In this document: in pieces, positions 3,837 through 30,219 of the stretch
Position numbering within the stretch: the first letter of the stretch is position 1
Layout of the letters: each line of letters opens with the position of its first letter
IMG/VR virus record: IMGVR_UViG_3300027749_000224
Span: 1 to 40,112 of that record
Origin: a virus
Reading direction: 5' to 3' (one strand)
DNA: 40,112 nucleotides
Made by a program: the position numbers and the translations under genes
Notes under the pieces: generated by a model
Told to the model about the DNA's origin: nothing
Database searches by the model: none
Seen by the model: only the letters and a program-made list of their open reading frames with translations

Positions 3837-3845
3837 TTTTATTCC

Positions 3846-5093: not shown

Positions 5094-5116
5094 GTTGAAA
5101 TTGCTCCGTTATCTGT

Positions 5117-5124
5117 TATTTATC
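5117..5124 (-). promoter_or_regulatory. Candidate late promoter box GATAAATA
   Basis: GATAAATA on the minus strand lies 23 nt before the ATG of the 415-aa fibre gene, with the SD ACGGAG between them. It fills the short gap directly after the stop codon of the 206-aa gene. It matches the box seen at the other block starts. Confidence 0.55.
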
Positions 5125-5745
5125 TTAAATTGTTACTAAGTTTGTCAAACTTTGGATTCTGACTGTGTAATCTATCTGAATCTGCCTGTTTAAACTCTTT
5201 TGCACCGGGTGAAATACTACGTGTGTCAATAGTCTAGTAAGAATATTTCCATTAACGTCAGTGCCGTTGTTCCCAAGTAATCCCAATTCGTCAAAAACAT
5301 AGGAACTATCTGTCTGGGTACTATTATCAAATGCAGCTTGTCCTGCAGGTTCGCCGTAATCTAGTAAACATTGGACTAATATATCAGTATAAACTTTACC
5401 CGTAGTATGATTTACTGTCATTTTATTGCGTGTAGGATCCAAATTAAAAACACTAGTATCGTCTACGATTTTAGCGTATGTCTGATTGTACAATGCAGCA
5501 TTCTGTCCTGTGACATTTGGTGGAAGATAGGTGATAATTCCAGTATCAGAAACACTTGCTCCGCCGTTACCAAATGCCATTTCGTAAATTTCCCCGTAAC
5601 CACGGCTGCTTAATGTGTCAGCGATAGCTATTGACATATTCTCGTAATTAATAGCATTTTTCTTATCTACGAATATTTCCCCGTTGTTAGGATCATAGAT
5701 TTTCAAAAATCCTTCTATCTTGTATGTTAGTGTTATTGCTGACAT
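5125..5745 (-). CDS. Conserved phage virion-associated protein, 206 aa
   Basis: The protein opens with ITLTYKIEGFLKIYDPNNGE and KKNAINYENMSIAIADTL, then EIYEMAFGNGGASVSDTGII, and ends with THVVFHPVQKSLNRQIQIDY followed by TVRIQ. I recognise these blocks from a protein conserved next to fibre and baseplate genes of cyanophages and SAR11-type myoviruses. Its function has not been established, though it is probably structural. There is no signal peptide. The start ATG overlaps the stop of the 51-aa gene by one base (TAATG), showing coupling. In T4 terms this location would hold gp8 to gp12, but I see no clear similarity to any of them. Confidence 0.75.
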   Translation of the reverse strand: MSAITLTYKIEGFLKIYDPNNGEIFVDKKNAINYENMSIAIADTLSSRGYGEIYEMAFGNGGASVSDTGIITYLPPNVTGQNAALYNQTYAKIVDDTSVFNLDPTRNKMTVNHTTGKVYTDILVQCLLDYGEPAGQAAFDNSTQTDSSYVFDELGLLGNNGTDVNGNILTRLLTHVVFHPVQKSLNRQIQIDYTVRIQSLTNLVTI

Positions 5746-5900
5746 TAATTATCGCCTCTTATTTGTACTAATACTTCTTTTGTATTAGGGTCCGTTATCT
5801 TTACGCTGGAAGAAAAGTAAAAACCTCCGTGTTCGTTGGGTTTACTTTCCTGAATTTCAGGTGATTTATTTTCACTATTTTCTTCCATTTTTTCGTTCAT
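5745..5900 (-). CDS. Small conserved-looking protein, 51 aa
   Basis: A 52-codon frame runs from ATG at 5900-5898 to TAA at 5747-5745. The N-terminal half is charged and probably disordered (MNEKMEENSENKSPEIQESK). The C-terminal half is a compact beta-like segment, HGGFYFSSSVKITDPNTKEV then LVQIRGDN. The stop overlaps the ATG of the 206-aa gene in TAATG, and the frame fills an otherwise empty gap exactly, so I consider it real. DPNTKEV echoes YDPNNGEIFV in the neighbouring protein. The start is uncertain: ATG at 5888 (residue 5) is an alternative, and neither has a good SD. Function unknown; perhaps a small virion or assembly factor. Confidence 0.72.
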   Translation of the reverse strand: MNEKMEENSENKSPEIQESKPNEHGGFYFSSSVKITDPNTKEVLVQIRGDN

Positions 5901-5913: not shown

Positions 5914-8900
5914 TTAAGTTATATCCGTCCTTAAGAAACTTGCACCTTGGGTATCTGCAATCTGTAGTGGATCTCCGTCAACTGTATTATAGATTCCGGG
6001 GATAGGATTCCATGTTTCTGAGTATAGAACATTGGTCATTTGATTGCTAGGTATCAATCCAAACGCTTCGGCATATAAAGGAATGTATGTTTGCATTCCA
6101 GTTCCGTTAGCTCCTCTGGTCAATTGTGATACTGTATTTTCAATTAAATCGCACTCATTGAATCCAATTTGTTCACCGTTTATGTACAATAATCTACCCT
6201 CTACAGTAGTGATGGTTAGTGAATTTCCTGCTGAAACTCCAACTGGTTGAATCTGTAATACCGGAGCAGTATTGTCTATAACTACTGCAAAATTACTACT
6301 ACTTACTGATAATCCAGTAGTATTGTTGTAGACTTGTATATGGCAGATAACATTCTTGTTAGAAGTCAATCCAATATTAAACGTTCCATTTGATAATGCA
6401 GGGGCGGTTACATTCTGAACTATAGAATTTGTCACCCTAGTAACATCATTTAGATAAATGGTGTCTTGTAGAGTTTCAAGTGGTTGTATTAACCATGTTC
6501 TAGTTTGATGATTTGCCCTGTATACTACCCCATCACCTTGCTGAGAAACATTCAATAGATATGTTTCTTCATTAGGAGATGCTGTTGGCATCATGCTTGT
6601 TATGATAACTTCATCCCCTGTAACTATCTGTGAAAGAATGCTTAAGTTGTTGTAAGAGTTTAGTCTCAATGCACTTGAAGGTACTCTGTATCCATTGATA
6701 GTTACCCATAATCTATCTACGTTGACTTGTTCATACTGTGTTACATATACAGAACCTGTTGCGTTTACCAATTGAACTTCTTCTTGGAAGGGGAACGGAG
6801 TCTCACTGATAGTGAATTCTTGTAATCCGCTAGCAGTACCTGTTCCGGTTCCTGTGCCACTAGCTGTGAATATTCCACCTACTACTGGACTACCAGTAGT
6901 CCAGTCATATGAAGATGCGATTGCTTCCCAATCAGTATTGCCCAATGAAGTTATCTCATACTCATTTCCAACAATAAAGTTACCCGCTGATATTTCAGGT
7001 CTAACTGCAAATATATAATATTTGTGTTTAGCTAAAATATTACCTAATATATTCGTACCCACAGACGCAGCATATTCAGTAAAGTATACTGGTGTATTTG
7101 GTATCAAGATGTCAGTACTGTCAACAGTTATTCTATTACCATTGTCATTTGTAGCGGTTGCAAAAGTGTTTGATATAGTGAATAATCCATCTATCCAAAT
7201 ATAACCACCGCTTGCATATGCTGATACAGTAGTTACTGGATAGTTAACTGCATATAATGCCGGATTATATGGTTGAGTATACAATTCATATTGTGTTGTT
7301 GATATTGGTCTAACATAATATAAATTATTGTTTAATTGCACTGAACCATTAACACCGTCAACACGCACCAATGAATTCAATACAAAGTTTGGATTTGTGT
7401 TAGTAGTTACTATTACACCACTAGAGCCACCTGCATATCCAAACAAGGTAGTAGCCACTGCTGCGGTAGTGACTGTAGGTGATGCACTAAACTCATCTTG
7501 TATAGTAAAGGCAAACGCTGAACTAGGGTTAGTGGTTATTGCACTAACTGTATAATTTGTTCCAATAGTACTGATACCATTTACTGTAGTTGATACTGCT
7601 GTTCCGCTACCTGCTCCTGCTCCACTAGCGGTAAAGATTCCACCTACAGTAGGACTTCCATAAATCCAGTTATATGTTGATGCAATTGATTGCCAATCAG
7701 TATTACCTAAACTAGTTATGCAATATTGTTCTCCTATTGAGAACGAACCTGCATTTAGATTAAGTGTTTTAAATTGTATAGATTCACCAATACTTAGGTT
7801 AAGTGATGGGTCTGATGCGCTAATCAATGCGTTTGCTAGTTTTGCTGTACCGGTACCAGAACCCACAACCGCAGCAGTAAATAAACTTCCAACTGCATAA
7901 GTCACACCAGATGTTCCAGCCGCAGTATTCCAATTTGTAGTACCTAATGCTACAATAATATATTGTTTAGTTGGTGTGAATGACCCTGCATTTACTACAG
8001 TTGCTGAACCTGCCTGTGTGCTTGTAATACCTATCGTTGCTGCCATTGGAGTAATAACATTGTTTATGTTTGTTATCTTTGCTACTGTAAATCCATTTAC
8101 AGATGCTACCATTGATCCAGTAGTAGTAGCCAGTACCGGCGATGGTCCTCCTACCGTTTCGGAAACTGTAAATGTGGTAGAATCAATAATTGAAGTAACA
8201 TAATATGTTGCACCTGCTGATAGGCCGCACCCTGAAATAACACTATTAAAGATTAATGGATAGTTAATTAATAAAACACTAGTACTTGATGTAGTCAGCC
8301 AATATCTTGCTTCATCAAAGTCACTTTGATCATATCCAACAATTGCAGTTCCAGTTCCACTACCTACAGCAGTTGCAGTAAAACTAGCAATATATGCAGA
8401 GCCTGAACCTGGTTGAACTCCACCTGCGGTTGCAGTAAATATTACCCCATTTCTAGCTGCTAATGTTATTGTTCTGCTTGCAACTGTTTGAGTAGCACTT
8501 AATGTATATGTACCTACACCCCCTGCACCAGTCAAAAAGCCGGTTATTGTTGTACCAGCAGTAACGCCTGTTCCGCTTACATCTTGGTTAATTGCGACTA
8601 CATCTTTCACTGCCGTACCAGTACCTGTAGCGGTTGCCTGAGCAACTAGTCTACTACCTACAGTATAAGTTTTACCTGTTGTGCCTGCTACAGTATTCCA
8701 ATTTGTAGTGCCCAATGTTAGTATTGTATAAGTCTGACCAACTACCAAAGCAGTTGATAATACAGAAGGAGTTAGCATAGCAGTAACAGTTAATACTCCG
8801 GTTAATACCCCATCGATGGTTTGATTATCAATACTTCCAGTGACAGTTCCGCCTGCTCCTAAATTGTTCCAATTACCTGTGCTAAGATTACTAATAATAT

Positions 8901-11900
8901 ATTGAGTACCTGCTACTAAACCATCATCTGTAACACTTGTAGCTCCAACACTTGTCCAATTGGTATTTCCCAATGATTGTATCACATACGGTTCTCCTAT
9001 TACAAAATTACCAGCAGTTACTACTTGGTCGTAATTTGCTACACTAGCAGTAGTATTGGTTACTGTTACACTAAACAGATTAGTGCCTGGTGTTCCGGTA
9101 ATACCATATTGTGTACTGAAATATTGACGGTCAGTTGAATTATATGAAGTAACTGCTACTGTAGTATTGGCTACTGGCGGGTTGTAGAATAATATTGAAT
9201 TAGTATCACTACTTATAGTGTATTTACCATTTGTTTGACGTAATCCATTAACTTCTACGATAGCATTAATTGGATTAACATCACCAACATAGTAATCTAA
9301 TGCAAAAGATGCAGTAGATCCATTACCAGTAAACTGTTGAGTCTGTGGTAGTGTATAGCCATACTGTGTAGGTTGTGTTTGTCCTAAGAATGAATATGCT
9401 AGATAATCTACTGTATTATCATAAGTCGCTGCAAATATTATTGATGCAGTGATTCCATTATCTGCGATTCCAATTGAGTAATCATTAGAAATGAATTCTG
9501 CACTTCCTGTGCCGTTCTGTAACTGGAATACCGGACCGCCAACTGTTTCACTTATAGTAAATTCGTTTGAATCATATATAGATTTGATGTAATATGTTTG
9601 ATGATGAACAATTCCACCAAATATCGTAGCACTAAACACTATTGGAGTATCTACTACCAGGCCGCTAGTTGTGATTGTTGTTATAGTATCAGTTGATGCT
9701 TTTGTTCTCAATACAGTAGCACTATAGCCCAATACTAATAAATTACCATTGTGATATACCGCAGGTGGAGACCAAGCTGCACCTAAACCTGTTTGTATAA
9801 TCGTTTCCATAAGTCCAGAAGCTGTAGACAAGAAGAATATTGTTCCTGCTGTTCCGGTTGATGAATTATACGTATCTGATATTGTAATTCTATTGGTCGC
9901 GTAACCAATAGATTTTACATAGTATGTTTGATCTTCAACTATATTTCCAAATACATTTCCGCTAAATGTTATTGCACCGTTAAGAACAAAATTATCTACA
10001 TTATCATATTGTATTGTATTGTTGACACCATTTGTTGATAATGCATAAGCTGCTACTGGACTAGTAGTTGGTTTGATTAATCCAGAACCTTGATATATGC
10101 CTGCGCTATAATTTGCATTTACATATATCTCATTAAATCCAGTAACTTCATTATATCTGATAGGATCAGTTTCAGTATTTGCTTTTACTAATTGATCACC
10201 GTTTCCAACTTCATACACATCAATTCTCAATGTGTCATGTGTAGTTGACGAGACGTAAGTTATAGGTTTAGCTACTGTGACTATTTTATTAACCCAATCT
10301 ATTGTATAGTCTGAATCTAATATCATAGTAGTACTCAATCCAGTAGTATAATCTATTAAGAATACACTTAGTTGAATAGGAGTAGTTACTCCGTTTAAGA
10401 AACTATATTGAGTTTGTGTGCCAGACGTTGGTGATATTTCTAATGAAACTACATTATACCCAATATTTTGATAGATTGTTTGATCCCAATTTGTACCAGG
10501 TCTAGTATTTACAATCATGGTAATGTTGTCGGTTACTACACCAGCAACTAATTCTTCTGGACCATATCCTGCTTCAAAAGAATCACCTTGTACATTGTAG
10601 ACTGGTTCAGGTGTATTGACATAATTATCAAGAACCCAAGTAGTACTATTAGTACTACGTAACATAGTGTTATTGTATCCTACAACAGTTAATGTTCCTG
10701 AAACATTTTCAGAAACACTACTTTGTAGATTTTCTATAACATTAGAGGTTCTTTGTGTCCACGTGATACCATTAATAGGGGCAGTCAATATAACACCGTT
10801 GTCTCCCACTGCTATAAATTGTTGGTAATACTCACTCCAAATAATATTATTCAAATTAGTAGCAACTGATGATGTTTGAGGGAACCAAATTGTTCCATTA
10901 AAACTAGTGTATATAACTCCATTATCACCTACTATCACAATAGTCTGACTATTACCCACAACACTGTTTAGTGAAAAATTAGTAGCATTAAATGAAACTT
11001 GATTCCATGACATTCCGTCAGTACTAGAATAAATTATTCCATAATTTGTAGGTGCAACTGTTCCGCTAGCTGAGGCTTGCCCTAATCCAACTGCAATAAA
11101 ACCGGTGAAACCTGCTGTACTTGCATACGCAACACTATTGAATTCATTAGTAAATCCGTTAGTAAACGCGAATGTTTGGTCCCATAAATAAGGCACATTA
11201 TCATTAGGTTGTGTTAGTGAAGTAATAATACTACTTCCAACTGCAACAGTAACTTCAGCAACACTAGAATATGTTACACAATTTAATGTTACACCTGAAG
11301 AATCTAACAATATTGGATCATTTGAGTTATATAATGAAGTTGCTGCCCAATTAATACCGTCATCACTAACTAATATAGGCGTTGCAGTATTATTTGAAGA
11401 AAGAATAAATTTACCATTAGTGCCGCCAGTGTAAATTATAAAAGTTATATTAATTAGGGTATTTGATAACCTGTTAATTGTCCAATTAGATACTGTACTA
11501 GTATTGATTGAAGAATAATCACTAGAGTTTGACGCTATAAAATATGTTGACCCTTTAAAGGTTATTGATTGTCCATTAAGTCCAGTTGGATAGAATGTTT
11601 GATCAGTCAATACTGTATCTAATGTATATTCATCTGCTGGCGCAAATGCATTACCTAAATAAGTACTGTTTGGATATGTTATTCCACTTACTAATTGAGT
11701 AAGGTCTACACCTGGCATATTAACAGTAGGGTGATAATAACCTATAATTCTATCTAATGCATTTAAGTTTCTATTATCAGGAGATAATAATTCCCATTTA
11801 CCAATAATAAATTCATTGTCATTGTTACTAACAACACATTGATATACCCGATTATTAAACTTAACTATACTAGGACTGAAGAAGAATGGTTCTGGTAACA

Positions 11901-14900
11901 ATGCATAATCACCTGAAGAAGCCATTGTCATTGACCCTGTTCCATCATTCAATTGTACTAATGAACTTAGTAGCGCCGGTAATGTAGATATTCTTACTGT
12001 AGTTGATGTTGGTTTATCATAGATATAATATGTAAGACCTAAACTTACACCTCCGAATACTGTTCCGGTAAACACGACCGGTTCATTAATATTGAAACTA
12101 GCAGAACTTGTAACAGTAATTCTGTCAGATGATGCTACTGTCTGTGTTGCAGTCGTAGATGTTATTCCACTATATGCAAAATTTTGTCCACTTACTGGTG
12201 CAGTTAATTCTGGGTTAGAATAGACCGCAACCTGATTTGATGATATAACATCAAGATAATATTTTTCAACAGTTCCTGCAGGTGTACCAACACATACTGC
12301 TGATGTGATTCCACCGATAGAATCAATCGTCAAGGCTGTTAGTGTTAAGTCGTTTGCTGGACTTGTTCCGCCAATATCAGAACCCGCTATAGTGACTGTA
12401 TTGTCAACTGCATAACCTTGTCCAGCACTAGTAATTACAATTCTATACCCACCTAAAATATAACTTACGTCAAAGTTAGGATCGGTAACAACATCTTGTA
12501 TCATCGTAACTTGTGATTCTAATACATAATGTGTACCAGAACCAGTAGTAGTAGTTTTGATTGTCGTTCCACCTACTACGTAAACTAAGTTGAATGTGTT
12601 TCCAACTTTATTAGCAACATAGTAAGTAGTATATACATTGAATGGTGCAGGAAGAGTACCAGTGCTACTTAGTACAACCGCTGTTCCATTAGGAAATGCT
12701 GAACCATTTGTTACTGTAATTGTAGCAGCAGATGGAGTTGAACTATCAGTAATTGTCGCAGCTTGCGTAGAATTTAATAAACTGTTTCCTACAGTTATAT
12801 ATCCTTCTCCACTTAATGTCATTATTCCGCTGTCAGTAGTCACAGTATATACTGTACCAAACAATTGATCTTCTGATATAGTGAATCTGCCAGTGCCGGC
12901 CGGAGGATTAGAATCTATAGAAAATACATAATAAACTAGATTCACTGATACTGTTCCAATTGACTCTCCGCTGAAGTATATTGGCATGCCAACATATAAT
13001 ACATTAGTTAAATTAGGATTTGATGATAATGGTACAGTTAACCAATTGCCAACATTACTGGTACTAGTTACAGTCAATGCAGTAGTACCGGTACCTGTAA
13101 CGGTATATGGGCCACCTGTTGTAGTTAGACTACCTATATCTTTTTCTACATTAAACTTAAGACCATTATATATGTTAGTTAATCCACCGCTAAAATTAGA
13201 GATGCAAATCCTGTTAACAGATGCTAGTGTAGCTGATATACTTCTAGTTAATAGATTAGAAATTGTACCTGACAATCCACTATATTGTTGTGAAGTTTGA
13301 TATAATGTGAATTGTTGGCCCGTAATTTGTCCCGGGCTTACTGGTAAATTGACATTCATTGTCATTGAACCGGATCCTTCAGTTAGTTGAACTGCAATGT
13401 CTTGACTATTAAGCATACAAGAACCAGTAGCTGTAGACAGTACCACTGCTTCACCATTAACTGAGGTTGATATAGAGAATGAAGTTCCGTTGGTAAATTT
13501 CTCTCTTACATAATATGTTGCACCTGCAACTATATTACCAAATGTAGTACCTGTGAATATAATAGGTTCATTGATTGATAATCCTTGAGTAGTCTCACAT
13601 GTTATAGAATAATTGCTACTTGAAGTAGAGGTAACTTCAAACATCAACGGTAATTCAGGAGTTGCGGACATTGTAAATGTTTCTAAATCAATGACTGTCA
13701 ATACATAGTATATTTTGTTTTCTACAATATTCCCAAATGTTTTGTTATTGCCAGCCGAATTTGTCACAAAGAATAATGGCATTTTTGTGTAAAAACCAAT
13801 CGTACCGTTTTGTCCCGTAGGTGTTAGTAATACAGTTACATTATTTGTTGTTCTTGTTGTGGCGACTGCATTTCTCAATCCAGTGTAGTTGATAGTAAGT
13901 ATAGCTTGATTTGTTAGTTGACCGACATATAAAATTAATCCTGCTGTAACAATAGTAGCTGTATTTTGAGCAAAAACTGTGCCAGGAACACCGTTAACAT
14001 CAACAGTATCAGAAATAGTAAAACCAGTATCTTCTAATAACGCAGCAGTACCTGTCCCACTACTTGTGAATTTTGAAATAACAACATCACCCACTGCATA
14101 AGATTTGCCTACGGTGTCAGCTACACTATTCCAATTGGTAGTACCTAATACGGTAATTACATAATTGTATCCTATCTCAAGATTTGAAGAACTTGTACTA
14201 GATGCGTTTGGCAATTGTACTAGTGATTTTACATAGTAAGTAGTACTATCAACTAATGTAGTGCCAATCGTAGAACCTACAAACTTGACTGGCATCCCTA
14301 TGTAGAAACCGACAGTAGAACCTATATCTCCCGCTACTGGTGCTCCGCCCTCATTAGGATTAATTCTTATTGCATTACGATATGCGGTGGTAGTATAACT
14401 AGAACCATATGTCTGTACTGTGTTTCTAGTTCTAGATGACCAAGTCAATGTTTGTTGATTTTCTGCATCTAAAATTTCAAATGTTGCGCCCGCAGCACTA
14501 GCCAAAATAGAATCAATTGATGGATATTCTCCATATAATTTTATTGATGATGATGCTACTTGATTGCTATTATTTAAATCACCGGCGTAGAAAGAACCAT
14601 ATAATGCACCTGACTCCCAATCAATGACTTGAGAAGTGTAAGTTGTTCTATCAAATCGCAAGGTAATTGCATTTTCTCTTATTGGCATTGAATTTGTTAT
14701 ACAATATCCAATCGCACCGATGCTAAAATTCTGAGTTCCTGTTCCAGTAGTACCTAATACTATCCTATTAGTATCTTGTATTGATTCAGTATACATAGTG
14801 TAAAGAGCAAAAACAGGAGACGGAGTAATTTCTAAAAGATTTACGTAATATGATTGACCTTCAATTAAGCCATTGATTCTAGTTGAATTAGAACCAACTG

Positions 14901-17900
14901 TATATACTACTAGATCACCAGTTTGTAAATCATATGCAGTGTTTATGTTAATAGTATTATCTAATACATTTACTTGACTACTATCAATAGATAAAGTATA
15001 AGCAGGATCAATTACTATTGTAGGTAGAACTGCATAGCCAGCACCCGGATTAATAACATTAACTCCAATTACACTACCTAAACTCATTATTGGTTCTAAT
15101 TGAGCAGGAACTCTTGGTTCAGGATATATAGATGTATCAATATATGCAGTAATTATAGGAGGATTTACATAGTTTCTACCTGTATTAAGAATGATGACAG
15201 GAGGAATATCCATAAAGATGTATTCTTCGGGTAAATGTTGAGTTATAGTAGTACCATTCATTCCCCTTGACAAGCCGGTCAATTGGTTGTTTAATAAGTC
15301 TTTTCCGCTATATCCTATTTGCTCTTCACCGATTTTTATTATTCCATTTATTGGGAATCCGTTGACATTATCAACATAACAATAAACCGTGTTCAATGAC
15401 AGATATGATTCTAGTACACCAATTTGAAAATCTTTTTTACCAACATACGATTGTGTTTCGTCTACAAATATACCTATACTTAATCCGTAATTATTAAACC
15501 ATTCGGTATATGCATTATTGTTCCAGATAGCACTTGTAGGTGGATATTGATAAACATTATCACCTCCGTTATAAACTAGTTGCGGAGACACAAATTCACC
15601 AATATTTGAATTCCATTGCGCCGGTAAATCGAAATCAGTAATATCTCCTTCAAACACTTCAGTACGGGTATACTTAAACAAGAACTCTTTAATTACAACA
15701 TGATAAGGTTTAACTTCATTCAAGTAACCTTCTAAGAATAATTGATTATCAGAACGGAATACTTCGATTGGCAATAGTTCACGAATAGTATGTGAAACAT
15801 CCAAGAATGATGTTTTATTTAACCAAGTTAAATAATTTTGACTTTCGATTGTTTCACTTTGAACATATTCAAATAATAGTATTAAACTCTTGTTTCTGAA
15901 AATTAATAATTCATTCGTATAAATTTCTTCATTTAATGAACGGATGATATATCTTGTTTCAGTTGAAGGATATGAATCATACGGAGTAGTATCAAAGAAG
16001 TTGTCTCCAAACCCTAATCTAGCACTAGGATAATCCCATAGTACAGATGAAAATTCTATTGTGCCATTGTCCAATCCTATTCTTGTCCAAAATGTGTCTG
16101 CACCATAGATATATGTTTCACCGTTGCCGGAACCATTAGCTATTACTTTTACAATAGTACCAGCCGATACTACCAATGTAGACAAATCTGCGTACACAGG
16201 AACTTGTATTGAGGCTTTGGTATTATTATCGTAGCCAGTTGCCCACCAATTTATGTAACTCCAATATTGGGTAGTATCAACGGACTCACCGGTGTTCTTT
16301 AGGAATACTGGGTTTCTGATTTCTGCAATTGGAAACTGTGCAAGTACAGTATTAGCATACTGTAGATAATTCTTTAATGCACCGAATCTATCATAGAAGA
16401 AACCTTGCCTTGGTCTAGATAATATACCGGTTTGTACTGCTTTTGGTAACAATGGGTCAGGGACAACTCCGCCGGCATTATCAACACCGCACATACTATC
16501 TAGCATTCTATTATACAACCCAATTGGTTGTTCAATACCCACTGCGCCGTGATATTGGTATCCAGCACCAGAGCCCGGTGTTCCTGGCAAGAAGTCATCT
16601 GCATAATTAGCACGTATTAAACTATATTGATTATGGGGAATGTCATCATTAGTTCCAGTTGAATACCCAATATTTAAAACGGTATCATTAGCATTAATAT
16701 ATGCAAATGCGTTGTACAATGCATAAGCACTCGGTAACAATGGTGCAAAATAAGTTATTCCAGTTGATTGCGGTTGTGCTATATAGTATTCTAAAACAGT
16801 GTCAGATAATGTTTTACCTAACATTTCAAATATTATATTTGTGTTTCTTGCCCAGAAATAATATATAGGAGATATCAACCCTTCGGCATTGATAACCCCT
16901 CCCACTGAATAATTATCTATATTATACGGAAATCCCGGACCTGTATATTGTGAAGGGGGTACATTGCTACTAATCCATGAATATACTGTTACATCGCTTC
17001 CGGGAAACACACGGCCCCACCATTGACTATTGTATGTTAAATCATTTTGATGATAGTTCATAAATCTAGTGTTAGAAGTATTGAACCACAATTGACCTAC
17101 TTTATCACTAGACCAAACAATTCCACCTTGTGTGTTATTTGGACTGTTGTATCCTGCAGGATCATTATTTGATGTAATATCGATGTTCTCAGCTACTGCA
17201 CCTAGTAATTTTCCTTGTAACGGATCAATATAATCTAGATTTTCCAAAGTGTTATTAGTTAAAGCACTAAACAATTGAATATTAAATATCCTATTAACAT
17301 CAACAATTGGTGCTGAACTTCTATATACTGCCCAGTCTGGAGTACTACTTTGACTTACATAAGTAATAACTTGACCATTGTATCCGGTATTAGGAACAAA
17401 GTTAGGTGTACCAATTGTTACGTGATTGCTATTGAAATCTAATGCAGTGCCAAAATTTGGTTGAGTTCCATACTCTACGTCTAACGAATTAGTACTTTGT
17501 GCGTATACAAAGTTACCAGGATTATCTATATTTTCGTTGTATGCCGACAAATAATCAAACATATAAACAGCACCTGCGTTAGTGAAAACATCTATCCACT
17601 GTGTAGCGTTATTGTCAAATACAGTATCATTGTCTAATTCGTCATCAGTAAAATCAAATGTTGTTGCTGAATAACGTTCACCAACTGGAGCACTTGCAAT
17701 GAATGAACCACTGTATGACTTGTCAAATTTTACTACGGTACCAAACTGAGTTCTGCCTGCAGGGTGAGGACACATTATCTTTTGGGTTTGACTGTAAATA
17801 GTAATACCCATCTCACTCAAGGTAGCAGTATTAACTACTGACAATGATAACTTGTTTCCGGCTGTTCCAATCGTAGTATCAACAAGTGATATGACTAATT

Positions 17901-20900
17901 TGCCATTGAGTGTTGTTGCATAAACATTTGGTATTGATACTATATTAATGCTAGTTGCTGATGTAGTTGCATCACCAATTGGTAATACTACAGCAAAACC
18001 ATTGATTAGTATAGTTCTAGGAGTAGTGATGGTGCATGTAGTATCTCCTACGATCATGCCATATTTTTCACCAGCATTTGTATATCTATGAACTGCACCT
18101 TCATAGTTTTTATCACTTAGTTCGTAAGGTGCACCAATCAATATCTCATTTGCATAACGATTAACATCTACACTAGTGCCAAACTCTACACCCACTCTTG
18201 GTGTTTCTTCATTAGTTAGTGTTTGTGTTAATACGAAATTACTACCACTGATATTAATTAAATCACCTGCATTTATTGTAGGTGATTGTGAACTATAGAT
18301 GTACAACGAAGAACCAATTACTGAATAGGTGTTATCGTTCAATGATGTCCCATTGACTGACACAAACAACGGAGTAGTTTGAACAGTAACTGTCATACTA
18401 CCTGTGCCTGTTGCTAATTGAATGTATGATGCTGCATTACGAGTTAACGCAATTCTAAATGTAGTGCTAGTTGGTTTATCATACACATAATAAACGGTAG
18501 CTGCTGCAATTGCACCTGCTGATATCAATGTGCCGGTGAATACCACCGGATCGTTTACACTAAATCCAGCACTACTTGTAACAGTAATTCTATCTGTGGT
18601 ACTATCAGTAGCAGTAGCGGTTTGTGTTACTGTTGCTGGTGTCCATGCTAAAGGAATTACCACAGGAATAAACGGTTGATTACTAGTTCTTGCAATAGAA
18701 TTTTGTACGGTTCTAGAGAATACATAAGTATAACCATAATTAGCAGTATTCACATTATAATCTTTATATGGTGTACCCACTACTACAGTATCTCCGTAAT
18801 AATCAGTTGCGATAGAGTATCCAAATGTATCTCCACTAACAAGACCGGCTACTGTGATTTTAGTAGAATATTCATATAAATCGGTTAATGCAGATTTACG
18901 ATAAACATAAACATAATTGTTATCTATGTCGGAAATGTATAACCAATTTTGATCACCAGACAATGCAGTTGAAGTACCCCAAGTTGTTACCCCAGCCGGA
19001 GCAGCTATTGTTTGATACAATTGCAAAGTATTTACTAAAGTAGTGTTTATTAATTGATAGATATAAACATTAGGTGAACCCGTTGGTTCTGAAATTACAA
19101 ACAAATCATCAATATATGAAATATTAGAACCAAATGATGCCCCGTGTGTTATACCTTGAATAGCACTATATGAATTTGTATCGGAATAATATCTATATCT
19201 ATAGACTATTCCAGCATCACTGTCAGCTACCATATATCCTAAATTGTCAGTATAAGCAACCGCACTACCAAAAGTTTCGCTACCCAATTCAGTAATCTCA
19301 TTGCTATATTTGTAATTTAAACTCTTACGGTAAACAGCCCAGCTACCATCGTTATTGGTATCTACCCATACTTTTAATTTATTAAATTCATTGTCTAGTA
19401 AAGGTAAGTTTATGATCTCTGGTGCAGTAGCAACACGCTGATTCTGCATTCTGAAACCAACACCTTGTCCAGTTAAACTAGTTATGTTAGGGTCTAATGA
19501 AAGATTGATAATAACACTATTCGGATCAACTACTGCTGCAACGATATAGTAATTGTCTATAGCAACATCAAAGTTAACTACCGCAAAAATCTGATAGATT
19601 GTTAGATTGTGTGCTTGACTAAATCTAATTGTTACTGTTCCATTAAGATTATTCTGTGCTGAAATTACAGAACCTAAACTTGCAGGAGTATATACTTTCC
19701 AATCTGATAGATAGTTAGCTAACCATGCATAATCACGTACATAGAACTCAGTTATAGGTATAGTAGTTCCAACTGAATTTTGTGCAGTTGACAACCCAGA
19801 ATAGTAATAGCTAGCCATCTTGACATCATCATAATTAACATATCCTGCCGTAGGATACAATTCAGATGGTTGTGTATTAGATATCGTAGGTAGTATGTCA
19901 ACGTCAGTTATTGGTCTACCGTAATTGAATACGCTGTATATAGGTACTTCTTGTTGTACGCCATTTATAGCAATACCATTAATTAAACCTACAATGCTAG
20001 GGTTACCGGTTAAATCAGTTTGATTTAACTTAAACTGAATGAAGTTATTATTCAATACTCCACCAAATTCACCTGACATAATAGCCCAGTTTTCATACAA
20101 GTCATAGTCAATGCCACCTTGTGCTAATGTTGCACCTTTGAATGCGCTTGCTGCATTCAATGTACCTTTATCTTTTATCATATTCTGATAAACATTAACT
20201 TGTGTTATGTCGGTTAGGTCAGCTAACGCCATGTAGTCTCTTGGACGATATCCAATTAAACTAAAACTTAATAAGTCAGCATCATTTTCTAAATTAGCTT
20301 TATTTACATCGTAATATAATGTACTTTCGTATGAACGAGTTTGGCTGTTAGGCAATAATCCTTTTTGTATTTGGTCATAATTTGTTTGTAACCAATCTTG
20401 TTCATCAAATGTTTCCTTTGCTTGAACAATTGTTATAGCAGTCCAATATCTATTTTTATATTTTACGATTGAACCTTGGGTATATTTAACTTCTCTAGTC
20501 CACTCTTGAATGTTATCTTGATTAAGTATGAATCCATATGCATCTACAGTTCCATTCCATTCAGCAGTTTTTGTACCACGGACGACAATACGATTTTGTC
20601 TTAATCCAGTGATCAAATTATAGATTACATCATTGAATAATGTTAGATTATTGAATACAATACCATGCTCAATGTTACTAATGTTAAATTGTCCATATGA
20701 TATAGTATCACCTTCATTCAATGCTGTCACTGTAAATGCAGTTCCGTCACGAATGACAGACATATCCGTACCTGATATAGGATATAGATTTTGATTTAAT
20801 ATAAAATTAAATTGTTGCAATGTTAATGGCTGAACAATATAACTGTCTTTGTTTATTGCAAGAATTTTTGCTGCAGGATTGATAGAAGTTATACTACCAA

Positions 20901-23900
20901 TCGCCCACCCGGTCTGTGCCCAATATAGAAACTCTGCAACCATTTGATTCCAGTTGATTGGAATACCATTTTCTATCTCATCAAAGACAACGCCTTTTTG
21001 TATCAAGTATTCACCGTAGCTTACTAAGAATTGTGATATTTGTTGAACAGTATAGAATTCAGTTCCGTATGGAACTGTAACTGTCTTATCATAAAAATCT
21101 GTTGCTACTTTTACTGTAAGAGTATCAACTGTAATAGTTTCAATTGCCGGATTTGGTTTAGGTGCTAATACTTTGAAGTACGCATTCGTCTGACTATTGC
21201 CAAAAACTTTATATCCTCGGTCAGTAATTTGTATTACTACACTACTGTAAACTATTCTATCAAACGGTTGATTTTCGTATAATAATACTTGATAGCTTTC
21301 GTCAGGAATCAATAGTGAACTGTTGTTACTATTAGCAGAACTCTTTTCTACATAGAATTTCAATAGGTTCTTGTCGCTGAATCCAGCTAAACGATATATC
21401 AATCGTACATCTAAGTTATCTAATAAGGTGTTTATATTAGTAGTAGCATCGACCCCAACTTGCTTTTCATAGTCAACTATCCAGTTGATATAGCTAGTCG
21501 CAGGTGTTCCAGAACCATAGATTGGCACATCACTTATGATTAAGTGGTCTCTGTTGTTTACTAAGTATTGATCGAATTCAATATTATATTTGTAATTGTC
21601 AACATCTACTCCTAAATTAAAGAAGTCAGCCGGTTTAGTTACTGCCAGTATACGCATCAAATCAAATGGCCATGTACTGCTTCTACGATAACTAAACTCT
21701 GCAGGCCCAACATCACCTACAACCCAGTCACGTTGAAATGCGTTTTGATCATATGCGCCTACAATAGAAATCAATGGTGAAACTAAATCTCCATTGCTGT
21801 CCACTGGAATGATGTTTAATAATTCTGGACGAGCGTACTTAGGTCTTATATAAGAATTACCATTGTTCCACACTAAACCTTCACTTAAATCTGTCCAAAG
21901 AACTAAGTTGTCGCTAGTATATGGACCTGCTCCATATCTAGTTTCCCACCATGTTGGTTTATTAGCTAAACCTAACATTTCCCATGGAGTTTGATCCGGG
22001 GTTGAGGTATCATAATAGTAGAGATACAATCCTCTGAAATACCCTTGTTCAATTGGTTGACGATTTATTTTGTTACCACTGTCAACATAGTTGTAGCTAA
22101 ATTGATTATTCTTATTGTAGAATTGTGTCTTGTAATCAATTCTATTTTGTCCTACCCAATCTAAGAAAGATTCACTGTATATTTGCAAGAACTCATCATA
22201 TGAGTAATCAGTATCTCTAAAGAATCCCGGTATTATTACACCTTCATAAGACCCTGCAGGAACTGTTTCACTTAATTTTAAGTTGTTATAAACACGAGTC
22301 TCATACTCAAGTAATACTTGGTCTCTGAAATCAACTAACTTACCAGTCGTTGGATCATAACTTCCATATAATTTAGTAAATGAGCCATCATGTCCTACAA
22401 TGAAATATGTTTCAGGATTGTAAGCAGTATCTAATACTACAGCAGGTATAGTCGCTGGATATAAACCTAACTTAGTAGGAGTATTAGGTGCATAACTTCC
22501 GTAAGTTTGATTGTACTCATTTACAGTAATTTGGTCGTTTGGTTGTAAATCAGTAGTAACAGTTAATGTAGGGCTATTAACACTTATTGTGTAGTCCACT
22601 CCTTTGATTAACTGAGTTTGTTTTCCGTTATGAGTAAGATATACTAATACTCCATTATAGTTTGATGTGGCAAAATTGTATATTTGACTTAATGGATAGA
22701 TACTAGTATCTAGCGAATTAGCAAAACTGTAAGTGTTAGTAATATACGGTGCTTTAGCTGGAAGCATGTCACTCCAGAAAAACGGTTGTTCATTATTACG
22801 AGGTGCATTCATTTGAATGATTGCATCATCTAACATTTGAGCAGGTGTCAACATTATGCTATAGCTAGAGTTATTAACTGTATCAATCAATAGATTTTTA
22901 AAGTTAATATATTGTCTACTATTGTACAGCAACGCATCAAATAAATCGTGTTTTTGATTTCGTAAAAATACACTTGGCAATACAAGAGAGGCACTATTCT
23001 GTATTATTCGATTCCCCCACGGGACTAAATTACCTAAATCACGATAATTATTTGATCCAAATACGTTGCCGGTTGTATTTGGATTGTTATAGAAAATACT
23101 TTGATATTGTCCGCGAATGTCACCGATGTTAGCAGTAGTTATATCTTCATTGAATGGGTTATTATTCAAATTATCTGGTATTTGATAATAAGCAGTATTA
23201 CTTACTTGGTCGCTTAATACTAAAATTTGCACTACAGTTTCTACTGCATCAATAACGGGAATATTAATTGTGGTAGTATTATCAGTGGTTGTTACTATAT
23301 AGTCAGTAACAGGTACATAATGATTATTAATATAAACCTGCACAGTAGGCCAATTAGTTTTTGTAGAACTCATTGGAGAAATATCGCATGTAAATGTATA
23401 AACTGGTGCAAGAATTGACCAATCAAATTCGAATATTTGATATTGAGCACTAGGAGAGATTGCAGTTTGCCAACCCAAGGACCTTACGTAATTAGTACGG
23501 TCAGTGTAATTATATACATACCCAGTATTAACATTTTGTGTTATTGCGGTAGTACGGTCTACATAATTAAAAGTATCTATGTTTAAAGAAACATCAAAAC
23601 TAATGTCTCCGATATTGTCTACTGAACTATAACGAATAGGAAAACCTAAATAAATATCATCAGTACCACTACCTATCCCATACCTAAACAATGTTGAGCC
23701 AGTAAACGATGTGCTGGTATATACTAAAGGATCACCAAAACTTACACCATTGTCATCAAATATATCAAACTTTGGTGATTGATTTAGTGTTGTCTTTTGC
23801 TGACCTGCATACCACTGTGTTCCATCAAAGTAGAAGTCTTTGCCTATATTATTGTATCCGCGATACACCGCAGTTTGTTCATTGGGTAATACTAATCCAT

Positions 23901-26304
23901 CTTCAGCTTCAAATAGAGTAATCAATGGAACTCCATAAAATGTAGTAGTTGAAAATCTTACTATATAAATTTTATTTTTTGTATTTACATTTGTATCAGC
24001 GGAGAATACTATTCTAGCACCGTCAAAAAGTGCATAATTATCTAGTGGAGTATCTGCCGTGACAACAGATGCAACAGAGGTTCCATTAACTATAGATTGA
24101 TTATACCATGTAACAGTTATAATTGTATTTGTTCCTACAACTGAAATATCACTAACTAAAGTTATTGAAGGTAATACACCAATTGTATCAGTTATATATT
24201 GATTGACCTCAAATAATCCTGATACCCCGGTTGTAGGAACTGTTATAGTAGTAGAAAATGGATATATAGAGGTAGTCATCGTACCACTAGCTGTAGTAAG
24301 AATAACCGACGGGCCACCTTTGATAGTAGATATAGTTATAAAATTGCTATTAATATCAGTTATGAAATAATTAGTACCAGATACTATTCCACCGAATACA
24401 GTGCCACCAAAACTTATAGTATCATTAACGTGTAATGAAGATGTACTACTCAACAAAATCTGATTAGTTACTGCATAAGTAGTAGTTGCTGTTCTATTAG
24501 TAATAGCACCTGCAACAGGTGCTATCACTGCATCATATGTTGTCCAACCTGCTACATCCGGGTAATATCCAGTTTGTCCCGCTACATAAGTAAATGCATC
24601 TGTGGTTCTAGTGTCAAAAAAATCTACTGGATTTTTGCCTACTGCACCAGAATTAAATAATCTCAGATTAGGATAAAACTCAATAATTGGTCTTTTTGCT
24701 TTATTGGCATCACTAGTATATTCAGTTAATAATGCAGGTGTATTATTGTATGTAGCGGTTGCATTAATTACATCGATATGAAACCAACGATTACTTCTTG
24801 ACCAAGCATTTCTATTAATTGAATTTCTAGCAATAGTAATATAATCCGGATAGATAGGTACGTACAAGCTAGAGTCATAGTTTCCAACATCATATGGAGT
24901 CGTGTCCCACGGTGTATATTCACCTGAAGAAAATAAACCAGGAGACACTAAAGTAGTTACAGCTAGTAATTCTATATTAGTGCCAACTCCTTCTACATAG
25001 TATTCTGTATTACTATAAGTATTAGGGAATACGTTACCTTGAAAAATAACTTTTAATCCATTAGTAAAAACTACTCCATTTGGAGAAGTATATTGTTTTT
25101 TACCTAATATGTCAGTTATAACATTAATTTGATTTGTAGTATTGTTTTCAACTAGTTTAATAATACCGACTCTAGTAGAAACAGTATCATCTTGATAATA
25201 CAATGTATCTAATATTGGACTATTATATGGTTCTAATTGTATGTAACCTGTATTATTTCTATAGAAAAGTCTGTTGATCCACTCTACACCATATAATGCA
25301 GTTATCTGCTGTTCAGTTGGAATAGCATTGCCTAAAGCTAATGATATAACAGGGTTATTAGCCGCACCGGTTAATGTTATTTGATAGAAATTAGTTTCAG
25401 TGCCTAAATCATTTTCACCAGTGTTATAAAACATTAATGTGAGTCCATCTAATGATGTGATTCCATCAATGCCGCCTATATCATTTACATATGCACCGTT
25501 TACTTGACTATATGGCAAGGTAGAAACAACATCTACTGTGTTATCACCAGGGAAAATATAATCAGCTAATGCATTTTTTTGAGGTACATTAAATGTAATA
25601 GTACCAGTTGATGCACCGTTATTAGTAACACCATACACATCACGAGTTTGAAGATTAGTTTGCGTTGGACTATACCCCGTGACACCAGGTGCGCCTTGTA
25701 TCCAAAATTTAGAATTTTGATTTACGATAAAATTGTAAGTTCCGCCGCGTATTAAAGTTAATGTTGGGTTAGCTTCAGCATCAGCTAATGATTCAGATGT
25801 TATTAAGTAATCAGCAGGTTGTGATTCAACTATATAAGTAGCTTCAGTATATACTGCGCTAGGCTGTACGGTTACACGTTCGGGGCCGGTTGGTATCCAG
25901 TAATATTGATTATAATTTATAATTTTATCTAGATCAGTGAAAGAATCCCATGAATAAATTTGACTACTAAACAATCTACTATTGTTATCGGTTATTCCAC
26001 CGCGTAATGTTAGTGCATCAACTATACCCGGATAGCTAATAAAATCTTTTGCGGTAGTGTCATTTTCTTTTAAGAACACAACACCTGGATCCAATTGATA
26101 ATCGGTTCTAGTTTTAGTAGGTTCAGTTACATAGTAGTCATTTGCATTAACACCATACCCAAACTTACTACCAATATAACCTTCAATTCTTTCAGTATTG
26201 GGTTGTGCAACTAGCTGGTCTAAGGTTGCTGCCAAAAACTGAGCGTTGGTTGTGGTTTTGAATATCTCTGGTAGAAAATCTAGTGTTCTAACTCTTGTTG
26301 CCAT
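5914..26304 (-). CDS. Giant modular baseplate/tail structural protein, 6,796 aa
   Basis: This single uninterrupted frame directly follows gp6. Its N-terminus ([20 protein letters not shown], then [41 protein letters not shown]) and landmarks such as [18 protein letters not shown] near residue 1308, [20 protein letters not shown] near 3300 and [17 protein letters not shown] near 3529 match a very large structural protein family I know from marine T4-like phages. Insertions are an FG-GAP propeller (about 2335-2988), a BNR/Ycf48-like propeller (about 4957-5234), at least seven G(T/N)T(N/D)W modules and about thirteen YYV modules. A GEQIGY...[12 protein letters not shown] motif near 3657 recurs near 6707. 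It is rich in Thr, Asn, Ser, Val and Tyr; predicted mass is roughly 0.7 MDa. The position suggests a role in place of gp7 and peripheral baseplate proteins; this is inference. Confidence 0.85.
6830..6988 (-). repeat. Coding module repeat, G(T/N)T(N/D)W type, copy A
   Basis: It encodes [20 protein letters not shown] followed by EAIASSYDW and [17 protein letters not shown]. It is the copy nearest the C-terminus of the giant protein and is closely similar to copy B (7591-7752). A 10-bp inverted repeat lies inside it. Confidence 0.75.
7591..7752 (-). repeat. Coding module repeat, G(T/N)T(N/D)W type, copy B
   Basis: It encodes [20 protein letters not shown], then QSIASTYNW and [17 protein letters not shown]. 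It aligns with copy A over its full length without gaps, which suggests duplication of the module inside the giant gene. Confidence 0.75.
7836..7990 (-). repeat. Coding module repeat, G(T/N)T(N/D)W type, copy C
   Basis: It encodes [20 protein letters not shown], then [20 protein letters not shown] and GSGTGTA. The final Gly-Thr tract and the central LGTTNW mark it as the same module as copies A, B, D and G. Confidence 0.72.
8603..8752 (-). repeat. Coding module repeat, G(T/N)T(N/D)W type, copy D
   Basis: It encodes [20 protein letters not shown], then [20 protein letters not shown] and TAV. It is most like copies C and G. Confidence 0.72.
8826..9016 (-). repeat. Two abutting G(T/N)T(N/D)W modules, shortened, copies E and F
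   Basis: Copy F encodes [20 protein letters not shown], then [12 protein letters not shown]. It runs straight into copy [21 protein letters not shown] followed by GGTVTG. Both lack the usual terminal Gly-Thr tract, so they look like trimmed or fused units. Confidence 0.65.
10605..11435 (-). other. BNR/Ycf48-like beta-propeller segment within the giant protein
   Basis: At about residues 4957-5234 there are repeated blades of the type [85 protein letters not shown] and [14 protein letters not shown]. Each has the S(T/F)(D/N)G..W pattern of BNR/Asp-box and Ycf48-like propellers. It is followed by the conserved [21 protein letters not shown] receptor- or glycan-binding role is inference; no sialidase catalytic set is evident. 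Confidence 0.68.
11918..12160 (-). repeat. YYV-type coding module, paired with the copy at 18380-18625
   Basis: It encodes [20 protein letters not shown], then [24 protein letters not shown] and a terminal GTGSMT. The copy 6.5 kb away in the same gene has [19 protein letters not shown] and [14 protein letters not shown]. These are the two closest members of a family of about thirteen modules. Confidence 0.7.
14034..14192 (-). repeat. Coding module repeat, G(T/N)T(N/D)W type, copy G
   Basis: It encodes [20 protein letters not shown], then [20 protein letters not shown] and TAAL. It lies more than 5 kb from the other copies and interrupts a YYV module, as if inserted into it. Confidence 0.7.
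17341..19300 (-). other. FG-GAP (integrin-alpha-like) beta-propeller segment within the giant protein
   Basis: At about residues 2335-2988 the blades are [114 protein letters not shown] and [18 protein letters not shown]. Seven blades match the usual number for an integrin-type FG-GAP propeller. Other modules are inserted between blades 4 and 5 and between blades 5 and 6. Confidence 0.75.
18380..18625 (-). repeat. YYV-type coding module, paired with the copy at 11918-12160
   Basis: It encodes [20 protein letters not shown], then [17 protein letters not shown] and [11 protein letters not shown]. It interrupts the FG-GAP propeller region of the giant protein, which suggests the module can be inserted between propeller blades. 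Confidence 0.7.
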
Positions 26305-26331: not shown

Positions 26332-29300
26332 TTATGCTATCTGTAATTCGGCGGGTGTGAGAGCCGCAATGACAAGTACATCATTTGAAGTTGCTGCATT
26401 TACGAAAATTTCGTAAGGTAAACATTTAATCTCATATAAGTCTCCAAATTTCATTGTTGGGTCATTGGGTACTAATACGCATGAACTTACAAATTCACCA
26501 ATTTGATTGTGTATATATGCACTCAATTCGCTGAAGTAAAACGTATCCCCAAAGTCCCAATTATTAATGTTGAAATAATTATTCATAGCTGCCAATGTCG
26601 CACTACGTATTTCACTATCACTTGCGTTAGTTGCAGAGTTTTTAATTACTTTGATTGTACCCCTAAGTGCGGCTGATGCTTTAGCCCCAAACAATGGTTT
26701 AAACACTACGCTGTTGATAATAGCATTATCAGTTAACATCTTGTAATCTTGAACCTTACTATATTCAGTAGTCAAGTCGTTGATTGTTGGTCGAGTTGGC
26801 ATGGGTACTGTACCGGTAGTATCTTGTATCCAATTTTGATATGCTGTATAGTAGGCTTGCGTGACCACATACAAATCAATGATATTAGTTGTAGCTGGAT
26901 CAATGCGTGTAGTATTATTACTATTATGTCTATATTGAAACGCTAATCCTTGGCGCCCTGGCTTCATGCTATACTGCGGTTGTTTAACTAAAGTATAGTA
27001 TGGCGTAGTTATAGTTGGATCTTGTACTGTTATGTAAAATAGATTATCTGTATATGCATAAAATAATTGTCCTTCTGGATAATCATATTTTACAACATCT
27101 ACATCTGTAATAGTTGCATACTGATAAGAAACAATATTGCTTGGAATCAATTCGGTTCTAGTTAGATTAATAGCATCTTGAATTTCTTCAAAGAAAGCGT
27201 ATATTCCAATATTAGTATTTCCGGTTACATAACCGGTAATCTCATAAAAGAAATCTGGGTTATCTACTATAGTTCTATTATTAACATCAATACTAGCAAC
27301 TTGAACTTCAAAATCATTTATATAACCGTCACTTTCGACTGTTTGCCCAGTGATACTTCCAGTGACAGCTTTAGACAATGGATAATTTGAATTTGGTTGA
27401 GTATTAGTTTCTAATACTTTAACGAAATCTTGCAATATAACCCCAGAGAACGGATCGTATACTAACTTACCAGCTTCATAAGTAAATCTAGTATCAGCTA
27501 CACTCCCAAAATAATAATTTAATGATTTATACGTAACTGTATATCTATTATACCCAGTACTGGTAAATTTGACAAAATACCCAGCTTGAGAAGTAGGGTC
27601 TACACTCCATCTATCTTGTGCAATTGTTAGTGAATTGTCAAACACTAAAGTAAAATTTTGTTGTAACTCTAATCTAATAATACATTCATTTGTAACTGTG
27701 TTAGGCAATGTATTTTGAAACGCCGGTATTACTGTAGTAATAATTGCTCCTAATGGAACATACTTATTTAAAGTTATCGGTCCGGCTCCATTAGCAAAAT
27801 CACCCAATCCATTGTTGTAGCCGTCACCAATGACATTCAACACAGTTGTCCAAAAATATGTTACGTCTGATGGACCAGCAACACCATATACCAGTCTGTT
27901 GTTACTGTCAAAATAGTAACTATCCGGTGCTATGAATTTTATCAATGCACCTTTAGTAATATATTTTAAGTTATACGTAGAATAAGTTCCAACGGGCACA
28001 GGATTATCATTACCACTAAGTAAATCATAAAAATAACCAGATGTACTATTTGCATCTACTGTACTAGTGTGCCAATATACTAAATTATCATCGGAACTAA
28101 TAGTGGTGTTGTATCTAGGATAATTCTGAACATAGTACTGCAATGACTTGTTATCACCTAATATGTTTGCTAATGTATCGTTTAAGAAAGTTTGAATATC
28201 ACTAAGATTGGTAATATTTAATAGTGCGTACCCGTCAGTATCATCTAACCATATGCCACCGTCATTTGCATAACTATTAGAACTACTATACTTACCAGTC
28301 GGGTCAAGCAAGTCTAAATTTTTACTTACACCTACGCTACTACGATTGATAGCTTTACTTTTAATAATTGAACTATACAATGTGTATGGAAAGTTATTGT
28401 AATCTTCTCCGTTAACCATACGATTTTGTGTATAATAACGACTTGGTGCTCTTTGCTTAATGTCAGCTAATGTTTCTCTAGCTTGTGCATTAGTCACCGG
28501 AGTTTGTAGACTTAAACCAATTGTCAATGTCTCGACACGACCAACTCTGCTGACGTAGTTCATTGTAACAGTAAGATTTTGAATCTGTGTGGGCTGGATA
28601 GTATATGTCAATCCATTACCGGCACGAACATATGCTCTAAAATTACCAACTGGTATCTCGCTGAATACACCGTCACCAAACACATAACTTACTTGGTCGT
28701 TGAATCTACTGTTCACAGAATATATCTGCCTAACACTATTTTGTGTTTGAAGATATGCATTCGCATAGATATTATCTACTTTAATCCATAGTCCATAAGT
28801 ACCGTTAGTTTGACTTATTTGATATAACCATGCGTCAGTATTATTAACACCTTGAATATCACCAATGTCAAGTACTTGATTAGCTATTTGATTTTGATAT
28901 GCAAAATCAAAGTTTTGTAATGTACCTTGTTTGAAGTAGAAGAAAAATCCTGTGTTTGGGCTGCCGTATCCTAACTTGTCGTTACGATATAACATATTGA
29001 ATTGACTTGTAGGAGCAGGAGGAATTTCATATACATAATCTTCACCAACTGTGCTTACACTACATAATTCAAAATTCATGTTCATCCCATTAACTGTTGT
29101 AGAAAATGGTACTACAGGACTAGTTCCAGGTGGAACTTGTAATGTATATTCGTCTGTCTTTACCCCAAGAATCTGTGCAGAATTCGCAGGTAAACCTACA
29201 CGTTGTGTGTTTACTAATGCTGCATTTATAATCGTATTGTATTGTTCTAACCAATTTGGATTAGCTGGATCGTTCCACAATATAGGGATATTAGCTAAGT

Positions 29301-29757: not shown

Positions 29758-30207
29758 TTATTGAATAGAAGCTGTGCCGGACGCATTGTTAAAAAATACA
29801 TTTAACAACTGTGCTTGATTGAAGGGAGATACTGCTACTTCTAATTCTAGTAATATTCCGTTCTCTTGCGGGAAAGCCCTTACTGAATTCAGTGCTAGTC
29901 TTGGATCTTGTCCGGCCATTCTGCGTATTTCAGTTTCTAATTGAAACTGTACATCTGCTGTATTTGGCTCAAAAACAAAAGACCAGAGTGTAGTTCCATA
30001 TCCAGGTTGACCTACTTTTTGACCCTGTGAGATATTTAGTGAATTTACGAAATCTTGTAATACCAGTGGGGTATCTACTACCATAAATTTATTGCCGATA
30101 TTTACTGGATCAATTAATGATCCTGTTCCGCCCGCAGGGCCAGTAGGTAAATTAGTTGACCTAGGTTTGTTTGCTGATATCGTGCTAAATCCAACGTATG
30201 AAGGCAT
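29758..30207 (-). CDS. 25: Baseplate wedge subunit gp25-like, 149 aa
   Basis: MPSYVGFSTISANKPRSTNL is followed by GNKFMVVDTPLVLQDFVNSL, then GQPGYGTTLWSFVFEPNTAD and LETEIRRMAGQDPRLAL. This is the gp25/GPW (type VI sheath-initiator) fold, which nucleates tail-sheath assembly on the baseplate. The length is close to T4 gp25 (132 aa). I place the start at ATG 30207-30205. The longer frame, to a GTG at 30267, overlaps the upstream gene and adds residues absent from the family. There is no clear SD. A CATAAATA box ends 4 nt before the ATG, overlapping the stop codon of the 649-aa gene. Confidence 0.93.
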   Translation of the reverse strand: MPSYVGFSTISANKPRSTNLPTGPAGGTGSLIDPVNIGNKFMVVDTPLVLQDFVNSLNISQGQKVGQPGYGTTLWSFVFEPNTADVQFQLETEIRRMAGQDPRLALNSVRAFPQENGILLELEVAVSPFNQAQLLNVFFNNASGTASIQ

Positions 30208-30211
30208 GATA

Positions 30212-30219
30212 TATTTATG
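30212..30219 (-). promoter_or_regulatory. Candidate late promoter box CATAAATA overlapping a stop codon
   Basis: The minus strand reads GCATAAATATATC then ATG. The TAA of the box is also the stop of the 649-aa gene. The box is 4 nt from the gp25 start, the same spacing as at 5905-5912, so a leaderless gp25 transcript is possible. Confidence 0.45.

Follow-up and report, generated by a model that had tools for sequence, protein, structure and literature searches.

Large genes after gp6 in described phages

In phage T4, the gene directly after gp6 encodes gp7, a baseplate protein of 1,032 aa. P2 gpI (Tail_P2_I, PF09684), which adjoins the gp6/gpJ homologue, is the expected functional equivalent.

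Giant genes directly after gp6 have already been deposited for both cyanophages and jumbo phages. The cyanophage examples include SShM2_093 of S-ShM2 (6,198 aa) and genes of ACG-2014a (6,064 aa) and S-RIM2 (6,378 aa), the S-ShM2 genome having appeared with other cyanophage genomes in PMC3037559 (2010); for jumbo phages, deposits go back to RaK2 (PMC3622015). A literature search for descriptions of giant phage baseplate proteins, or of giant genes after gp6, found none, and neither group has a functional assignment apart from a single short motif resembling gp7 in the cyanophage proteins (see below).

The jumbo phage proteins belong to PHROG_10938 (“virion structural protein,” 3,324 positions), whose members include RaK2 gp465 (3,326 aa), 121Q gp582 (3,323 aa), CBB_236 (3,340 aa), PA5oct gp355 (3,857 aa), SCTP-2 gp140 (3,807 aa), and Atu_ph07 gp180 (4,449 aa). 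By tblastn the family is found in 57 jumbo-phage records, with identities below 30% among the matches listed. In RaK2, PA5oct, Atu_ph07, 121Q, and CBB the gene immediately upstream is annotated as baseplate wedge; in Vibrio phage 2.275 and SCTP-2 the upstream gene is large and carries no wedge annotation. The one in SCTP-2 (a Salicola phage) is an unannotated 3,096-aa gene at the usual gp6 site (L190:10609-19899).

Several of these proteins have been found in virions. CBB_236 was detected in CBB virions by mass spectrometry, with 21 peptides (PMC5259590), and phAPEC6 gp245 (381.9 kDa) with 17 virion peptides, listed beside the wedge protein gp244 (PMC7247149); neighbor order and size suggest that gp245 is the homologue of 121Q gp582. 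Peptide coverage in both cases is only 7.6-7.7%. PA5oct gp355 carries an ESI-MS/MS flag.

A 6,796-residue frame

The window analyzed here is a metagenome fragment, a linear IMG/VR record of 40,112 bases (IMGVR_UViG_3300027749_000224). Its minus strand contains a single ATG-to-stop frame of 6,796 aa at 5914-26304 with no internal stops, confirming the first-pass annotation, which had not given the strand; the plus strand has 498 stops over the same interval. The product is predicted to be 738.5 kDa, with a pI of 4.3 and 12% Thr. The gene order is gp53-gp5-gp25-gp6-giant-(~200 aa)-fibers, with 27 nt between the gp6-like gene and the giant start, so that the proposed position directly after gp6 also holds:

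37409-37723, minus strand: gp53-like wedge gene (PF11246 above cut-off; phrog_7145, E = 1e-22)
32167-34233, minus strand: gp5-like hub/spike gene (phrog_13211, E = 4e-36)
29758-30267, minus strand: gp25-like wedge gene (PF04965 above cut-off)
26332-29706, minus strand: gp6-like baseplate wedge gene, directly upstream of the giant (phrog_10646, E = 7e-257; phrog_219, E = 1e-19)
5914-26304, minus strand: giant gene, 6,796 aa, under purifying selection over its full length
5745-5900, minus strand: conserved 51-aa ORF separating the giant from the following gene and present in all 16 relatives checked
5125-5745, minus strand: 206-aa gene downstream of the giant (phrog_11259, E = 6e-68), with similar ~200-aa genes in several jumbo phages

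As in the window, a ~200-aa gene follows the giant homologue in PA5oct, SCTP-2, and Vibrio 2.275.

Scans of IMG/VR using two conserved segments of the giant found 135 and 100 related stretches. Stops or an assembly collapse inside the frame had been raised as a concern; in 49 of the 50 independent records examined whole the frame is uninterrupted, at 5,798-7,757 aa. One relative (L036) has a giant of exactly 6,796 aa, ~92% identical to that of the window. The longest frame seen, in L023 (record G026), is open over 7,757 aa. The single exception, L054 (record G037), has one TAA in the conserved core, at about aa 1344 of the frame; a natural mutant, a sequencing error, and recoding are all candidate explanations.

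Pairwise dN/dS was calculated along the entire frame in consecutive 400-codon windows. For the three closest relatives it is 0.03-0.11 (L036), 0.03-0.20 (L005), and 0.03-0.16 (L003); for L016 and L021, which are more distant, it is 0.06-0.42, with synonymous sites near saturation. Values of 0.03-0.20 in every window indicate that selection acts on the whole chain, including its C-terminal half. Relatives with 92-94% identity in the probed segments come from contigs 231, 212, and 303 kb long, and contigs with less similar relatives reach 364 kb; the source is therefore very probably a jumbo phage.

A core shared with the jumbo phage proteins

Profiles built from the IMG/VR relatives pick out four stretches common to the giant and six isolate homologues:

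25864-26304, minus strand: N-terminal core segment, residues 1-147 (LPEIFK...; domain E from 2e-15 to 4e-33 against Atu_ph07, PA5oct, SCTP-2, Vibrio 2.275, 121Q, and RaK2)
24571-24873, minus strand: core segment, residues 478-578 (profiles against isolate homologues)
19717-24018, minus strand: largest core block, residues 763-2196, with GHDGS at residue 1304 (phrog_10938, E = 1.8e-203)
15487-17307, minus strand: core block, residues 3000-3606, with two of the landmark motifs (profiles against isolate homologues)

In profile searches the core matches the isolate proteins with E as low as 8e-141, and PHROG_10938 itself is matched by the first 3,600 residues of the giant, in two overlapping pieces (E = 1.8e-203 and 5.2e-73). 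Within the lineage, core identity is mostly 60-85%. Four landmark motifs had been read as marking a known large protein of aquatic T4-like phages in the first ~3,700 residues. Each occurs once in the giant (residues 11, 1304, 3297, and 3530), and there is indeed such a core in the first ~3,600 residues; by sequence, however, the family is that of RaK2, PA5oct, and Atu_ph07 (phrog_10938) rather than the cyanophage one.

The PHROG_10938 proteins resemble the window giant in their collinear core and their site after gp6. They differ in being ~2,300-3,500 residues shorter, without the M1 and M2 repeats described below, and without a match to the profile of its FG-GAP region. A comparison of gene lengths, as the first-pass annotation had recommended, gives 5.8-7.8 kaa for the lineage, 3.3-4.4 kaa for the jumbo isolates, and 6.1-6.4 kaa for the cyanophages. 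Judged from its core, the giant is a longer variant (the 5.8-7.8 kaa lineage) of a known jumbo-phage family, only its ~3,000-residue extension being new. That it is a phage structural protein is supported by the published presence of homologues (CBB_236, phAPEC6 gp245, PA5oct gp355) in virions, the window giant being known from its gene alone.

The insert and the C-terminal half

Outside the core, the following features can be distinguished:

17308-19707, minus strand: insert with an FG-GAP type beta-propeller, residues 2200-2999 (FG-GAP_2, PF14312, at 2482-2529)
14842-15447, minus strand: LSRGxNGT and GxGYxxxP modules, residues 3620-3821, the latter common to the cyanophage giants
11914-14403, minus strand: M1 repeat array (6 of the 13 M1 copies) with one M2, residues 3968-4797 (iterated HMMs)
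10615-11367, minus strand: Ycf48/BNR-like beta-propeller repeats, residues ~4980-5230 (PSII_BNR and other propeller models)
6823-8997, minus strand: M2 array (7 of 8 copies) with M1 copies, residues 5770-6494, whose presence is the most variable among relatives
5917-6807, minus strand: conserved C-terminal cap ending in LTRGANGT, residues 6500-6796 (alignment A6)

PF14312 is found in 32 of 34 lineage members (best E = 1.8e-8); a profile of the FG-GAP region had no match in the six isolate homologues. The second propeller is matched by PSII_BNR in 6 of 38 members (best E = 2.3e-6) and by other propeller models in further ones; for the window giant, NCBIfam F510_1955 gives E = 1e-4, below its cut-off. 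The cap has a mean column identity of 61% over 37 sequences. Profiles of the cap and extension match the C-terminus of Atu_ph07 weakly, and otherwise touch the isolates only weakly; tblastn with the last 2,997 residues matched no isolate.

The M1 (~80 aa, 13 copies) and M2 (46 aa, 8 copies) repeats were detected with iterated HMMs, self-BLAST having given the self-match alone, and neither was found in the six isolate homologues. Across 42 proteins the M2 count ranges from 0 to 8 and tracks length (Spearman rho 0.78, indicative only, as the sequences are related), while the M1 count (9-16) shows no correlation with it. The first-pass annotation described everything beyond the core as mostly module expansions, which is too strong: recognizable repeats make up ~1,420 of the 6,796 residues, and the C-terminal ~3,000 residues are kept across the lineage, mostly at 45-76% identity per 100 residues. 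This conservation argues for a C-terminal half that belongs to the lineage as a whole, with some variable units, rather than one that is mostly a recent expansion.

Comparison with the cyanophage giants

A Foldseek search of BFVD with residues 3000-4000 retrieved both family members and cyanophage proteins, prompting a comparison with S-ShM2, whose type of giant has relatives in 479 records. Three cyanophage giants have a T4 gp7 motif (DFYstKG..sy.fLfklLY) at residues ~690-720 (699-730 in S-ShM2), with E from 4e-6 to 3e-5 (reversed sequences score above 1); the same motif was looked for in the window giant and not found. In S-ShM2, where the giant is at L208:1319-19915, a separate downstream gene is annotated as gp7, an annotation that looks doubtful.

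The GxGYxxxP module of the window giant aligns with that of the cyanophage giants over 117 columns (hhalign, 94% probability, E = 1e-7), and its HMM matches SShM2_093 and SShM2_097. The cyanophage giants of the SShM2_093 type thus resemble the window giant in position after gp6, size class, and this module; they differ in having the gp7 motif and in showing no match to the jumbo-phage core profiles A1 and A2. The two could be highly diverged versions of one enlarged gene at the gp7 position, or different genes enlarged at the same place. At least two groups related to T4, the Kyanoviridae and the RaK2-like/freshwater jumbo phages, have a gene after gp6 that has become gigantic.

Search for gp7 and other wedge proteins

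The first-pass annotation saw no gp7-gp12 genes and suggested that the giant combines their functions. Profiles of T4 gp7 (phrog_964), P2 gpI (PF09684), and gp8 (PF09215) had no matches in 14 large relatives, all 14 of which had the gp6 family; 13 of the 14 also contain short N-terminal gp10-like matches at other places. No gp7 signature was detected in the giant, and no match to PF09684; a combination of several peripheral baseplate functions in one chain is possible. T4 gp7 shares with it the place directly after gp6, but is 6.6 times shorter and has no detected sequence relation to it, in a comparison that is weak at such distance. Comparison of the giant core by hhalign with T4 gp6-gp12, gp53, and P2 gpI was null, and the positive control, gp6 against T4 gp6, gave only a marginal signal (E = 0.007), so that the missing gp7 signal is not evidence of absence.

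Structure prediction adds little on this point. AlphaFold models of residues 1-1000 and 3000-4000 are beta-rich, with a mean pLDDT of 63, but the most conserved helical parts (1-141, ~3200-3307, and 3485-3560) have pLDDT below 50, making the models unusable for the gp7 question. Searches of solved structures with profiles A1-A3 gave no meaningful match. Foldseek against PDB gave none for residues 3000-4000, and for residues 1-1000 gave cupredoxin-like laccases (E = 1e-3, probability ~0.6 or less, TM below 0.2), which we regard as a non-finding.

Possible roles of the giant protein

The explanation we favor, and think likely, is that the giant is a tail baseplate protein at the T4 gp7 position, with a docked core and outward beta domains, present as one chain per wedge. 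In its favor are the gene order, the shared core, the homologues in virions, the lack of a separate gp7, gpI, or gp8 match in the 14 relatives, the cyanophage giant at the same place with its gp7 motif, the beta-rich models, and the tracking of length by M2 number. Against it are the lack of a profile link to T4 gp7 or P2 gpI, and of any solved structure matching by sequence or fold, and the low AlphaFold confidence in the most conserved helical parts of the core.

From these observations we infer that the protein sits in the baseplate, in how many copies, that its role is gp7-like, and that its outer domains project outward and bind ligands, as follows. One very long chain would be present in each wedge, probably making six per virion (~4.4 MDa in total) by analogy with gp7. 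The four core segments would dock on the gp6/gp53/gp25 wedge ring and build the wedge body and baseplate periphery, while the two beta-propellers, the 80-aa and 46-aa repeats, and the C-terminal cap would point outward, where they might carry fibers or touch host surface sugars (ligand binding by the propellers being suggested by fold type only). Gain or loss of repeats would then lengthen or shorten the outward domains and leave the core undisturbed. If this is correct, the combination of a conserved core and exchangeable propellers and repeats would show how enlarging one subunit lets a contractile baseplate grow outward, and a very large share of the baseplate protein of widespread freshwater-type jumbo phages (a shorthand label taken from the metagenome context) would lie in unannotated frames. 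The cultured relatives 121Q, RaK2, PA5oct, and CBB make the idea testable.

A stronger version, in which an uncut ~740-kDa chain in each wedge replaces gp7, gp8, and other T4 peripheral baseplate proteins and also carries the outermost host-contacting domains, seems to us unlikely. If true, the baseplate periphery would be six copies of one protein, its reach tuned by repeat number.

As an alternative to a wedge component, the giant might be a long appendage attached to the baseplate, a fiber or whisker forming a flexible string of beta domains for adsorption. Adhesins typically show such features as repeat arrays, propellers, and a length that varies, there are fiber-like genes downstream in the window, and RaK2-like phages such as CBB bear 119-nm tail hairs (PMC5259590). 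The core, however, is more conserved than is usual for adhesins; the 3.3-kaa homologues lack the repeats and propellers; RaK2 has the gene too, yet no hairs are mentioned in the passages of its description consulted; and the giant follows gp6 wherever the neighbor can be identified. We therefore consider an appendage rather improbable.

It is more doubtful still that the giant is cleaved as a polyprotein into several virion proteins, one of them a wedge subunit of normal size. A Peptidase_G2 chaperone-type domain is encoded nearby, the relatives encode a gp21-type prohead protease, and the low peptide coverage of the homologues leaves a single chain unproven. The T4 gp21 protease, however, acts on head proteins, and profile searches found no protease domain within the giant. 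The CBB and phAPEC6 papers, moreover, give one full-length entry each (PMC5259590, PMC7247149).

A tail tape measure protein, which the great length of the chain and its place among the tail genes might suggest, is very improbable: the giant is beta-rich rather than helical (and acidic and Thr-rich), its length would imply a tail greatly exceeding the 120-140 nm of relatives, and in Atu_ph07 a different gene is annotated as the tape measure. That its length is an assembly artifact or a decayed gene read through, as might be suspected of a metagenome contig with one interrupted relative, is ruled out by the open frames of the other 49 and the low dN/dS throughout against close relatives.

Downstream genes

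The 51-aa ORF after the giant may be a truncated paralogue: it contains a motif, VKITDPNTKEVLV, that resembles both the beginning of the 206-aa protein and small ORFs located at this site in Atu_ph07 (gp179) and PA5oct (gp356). Further downstream, the fiber-like protein encoded at 3846-5093 (minus strand) carries, close to its C-terminus, an intramolecular chaperone domain of the autoproteolytic Peptidase_G2 type. Two genes near the fiber genes, within 979-2533 on the minus strand, appear by eye to be glycosyltransferase-like, and one has a weak match to phrog_1903.
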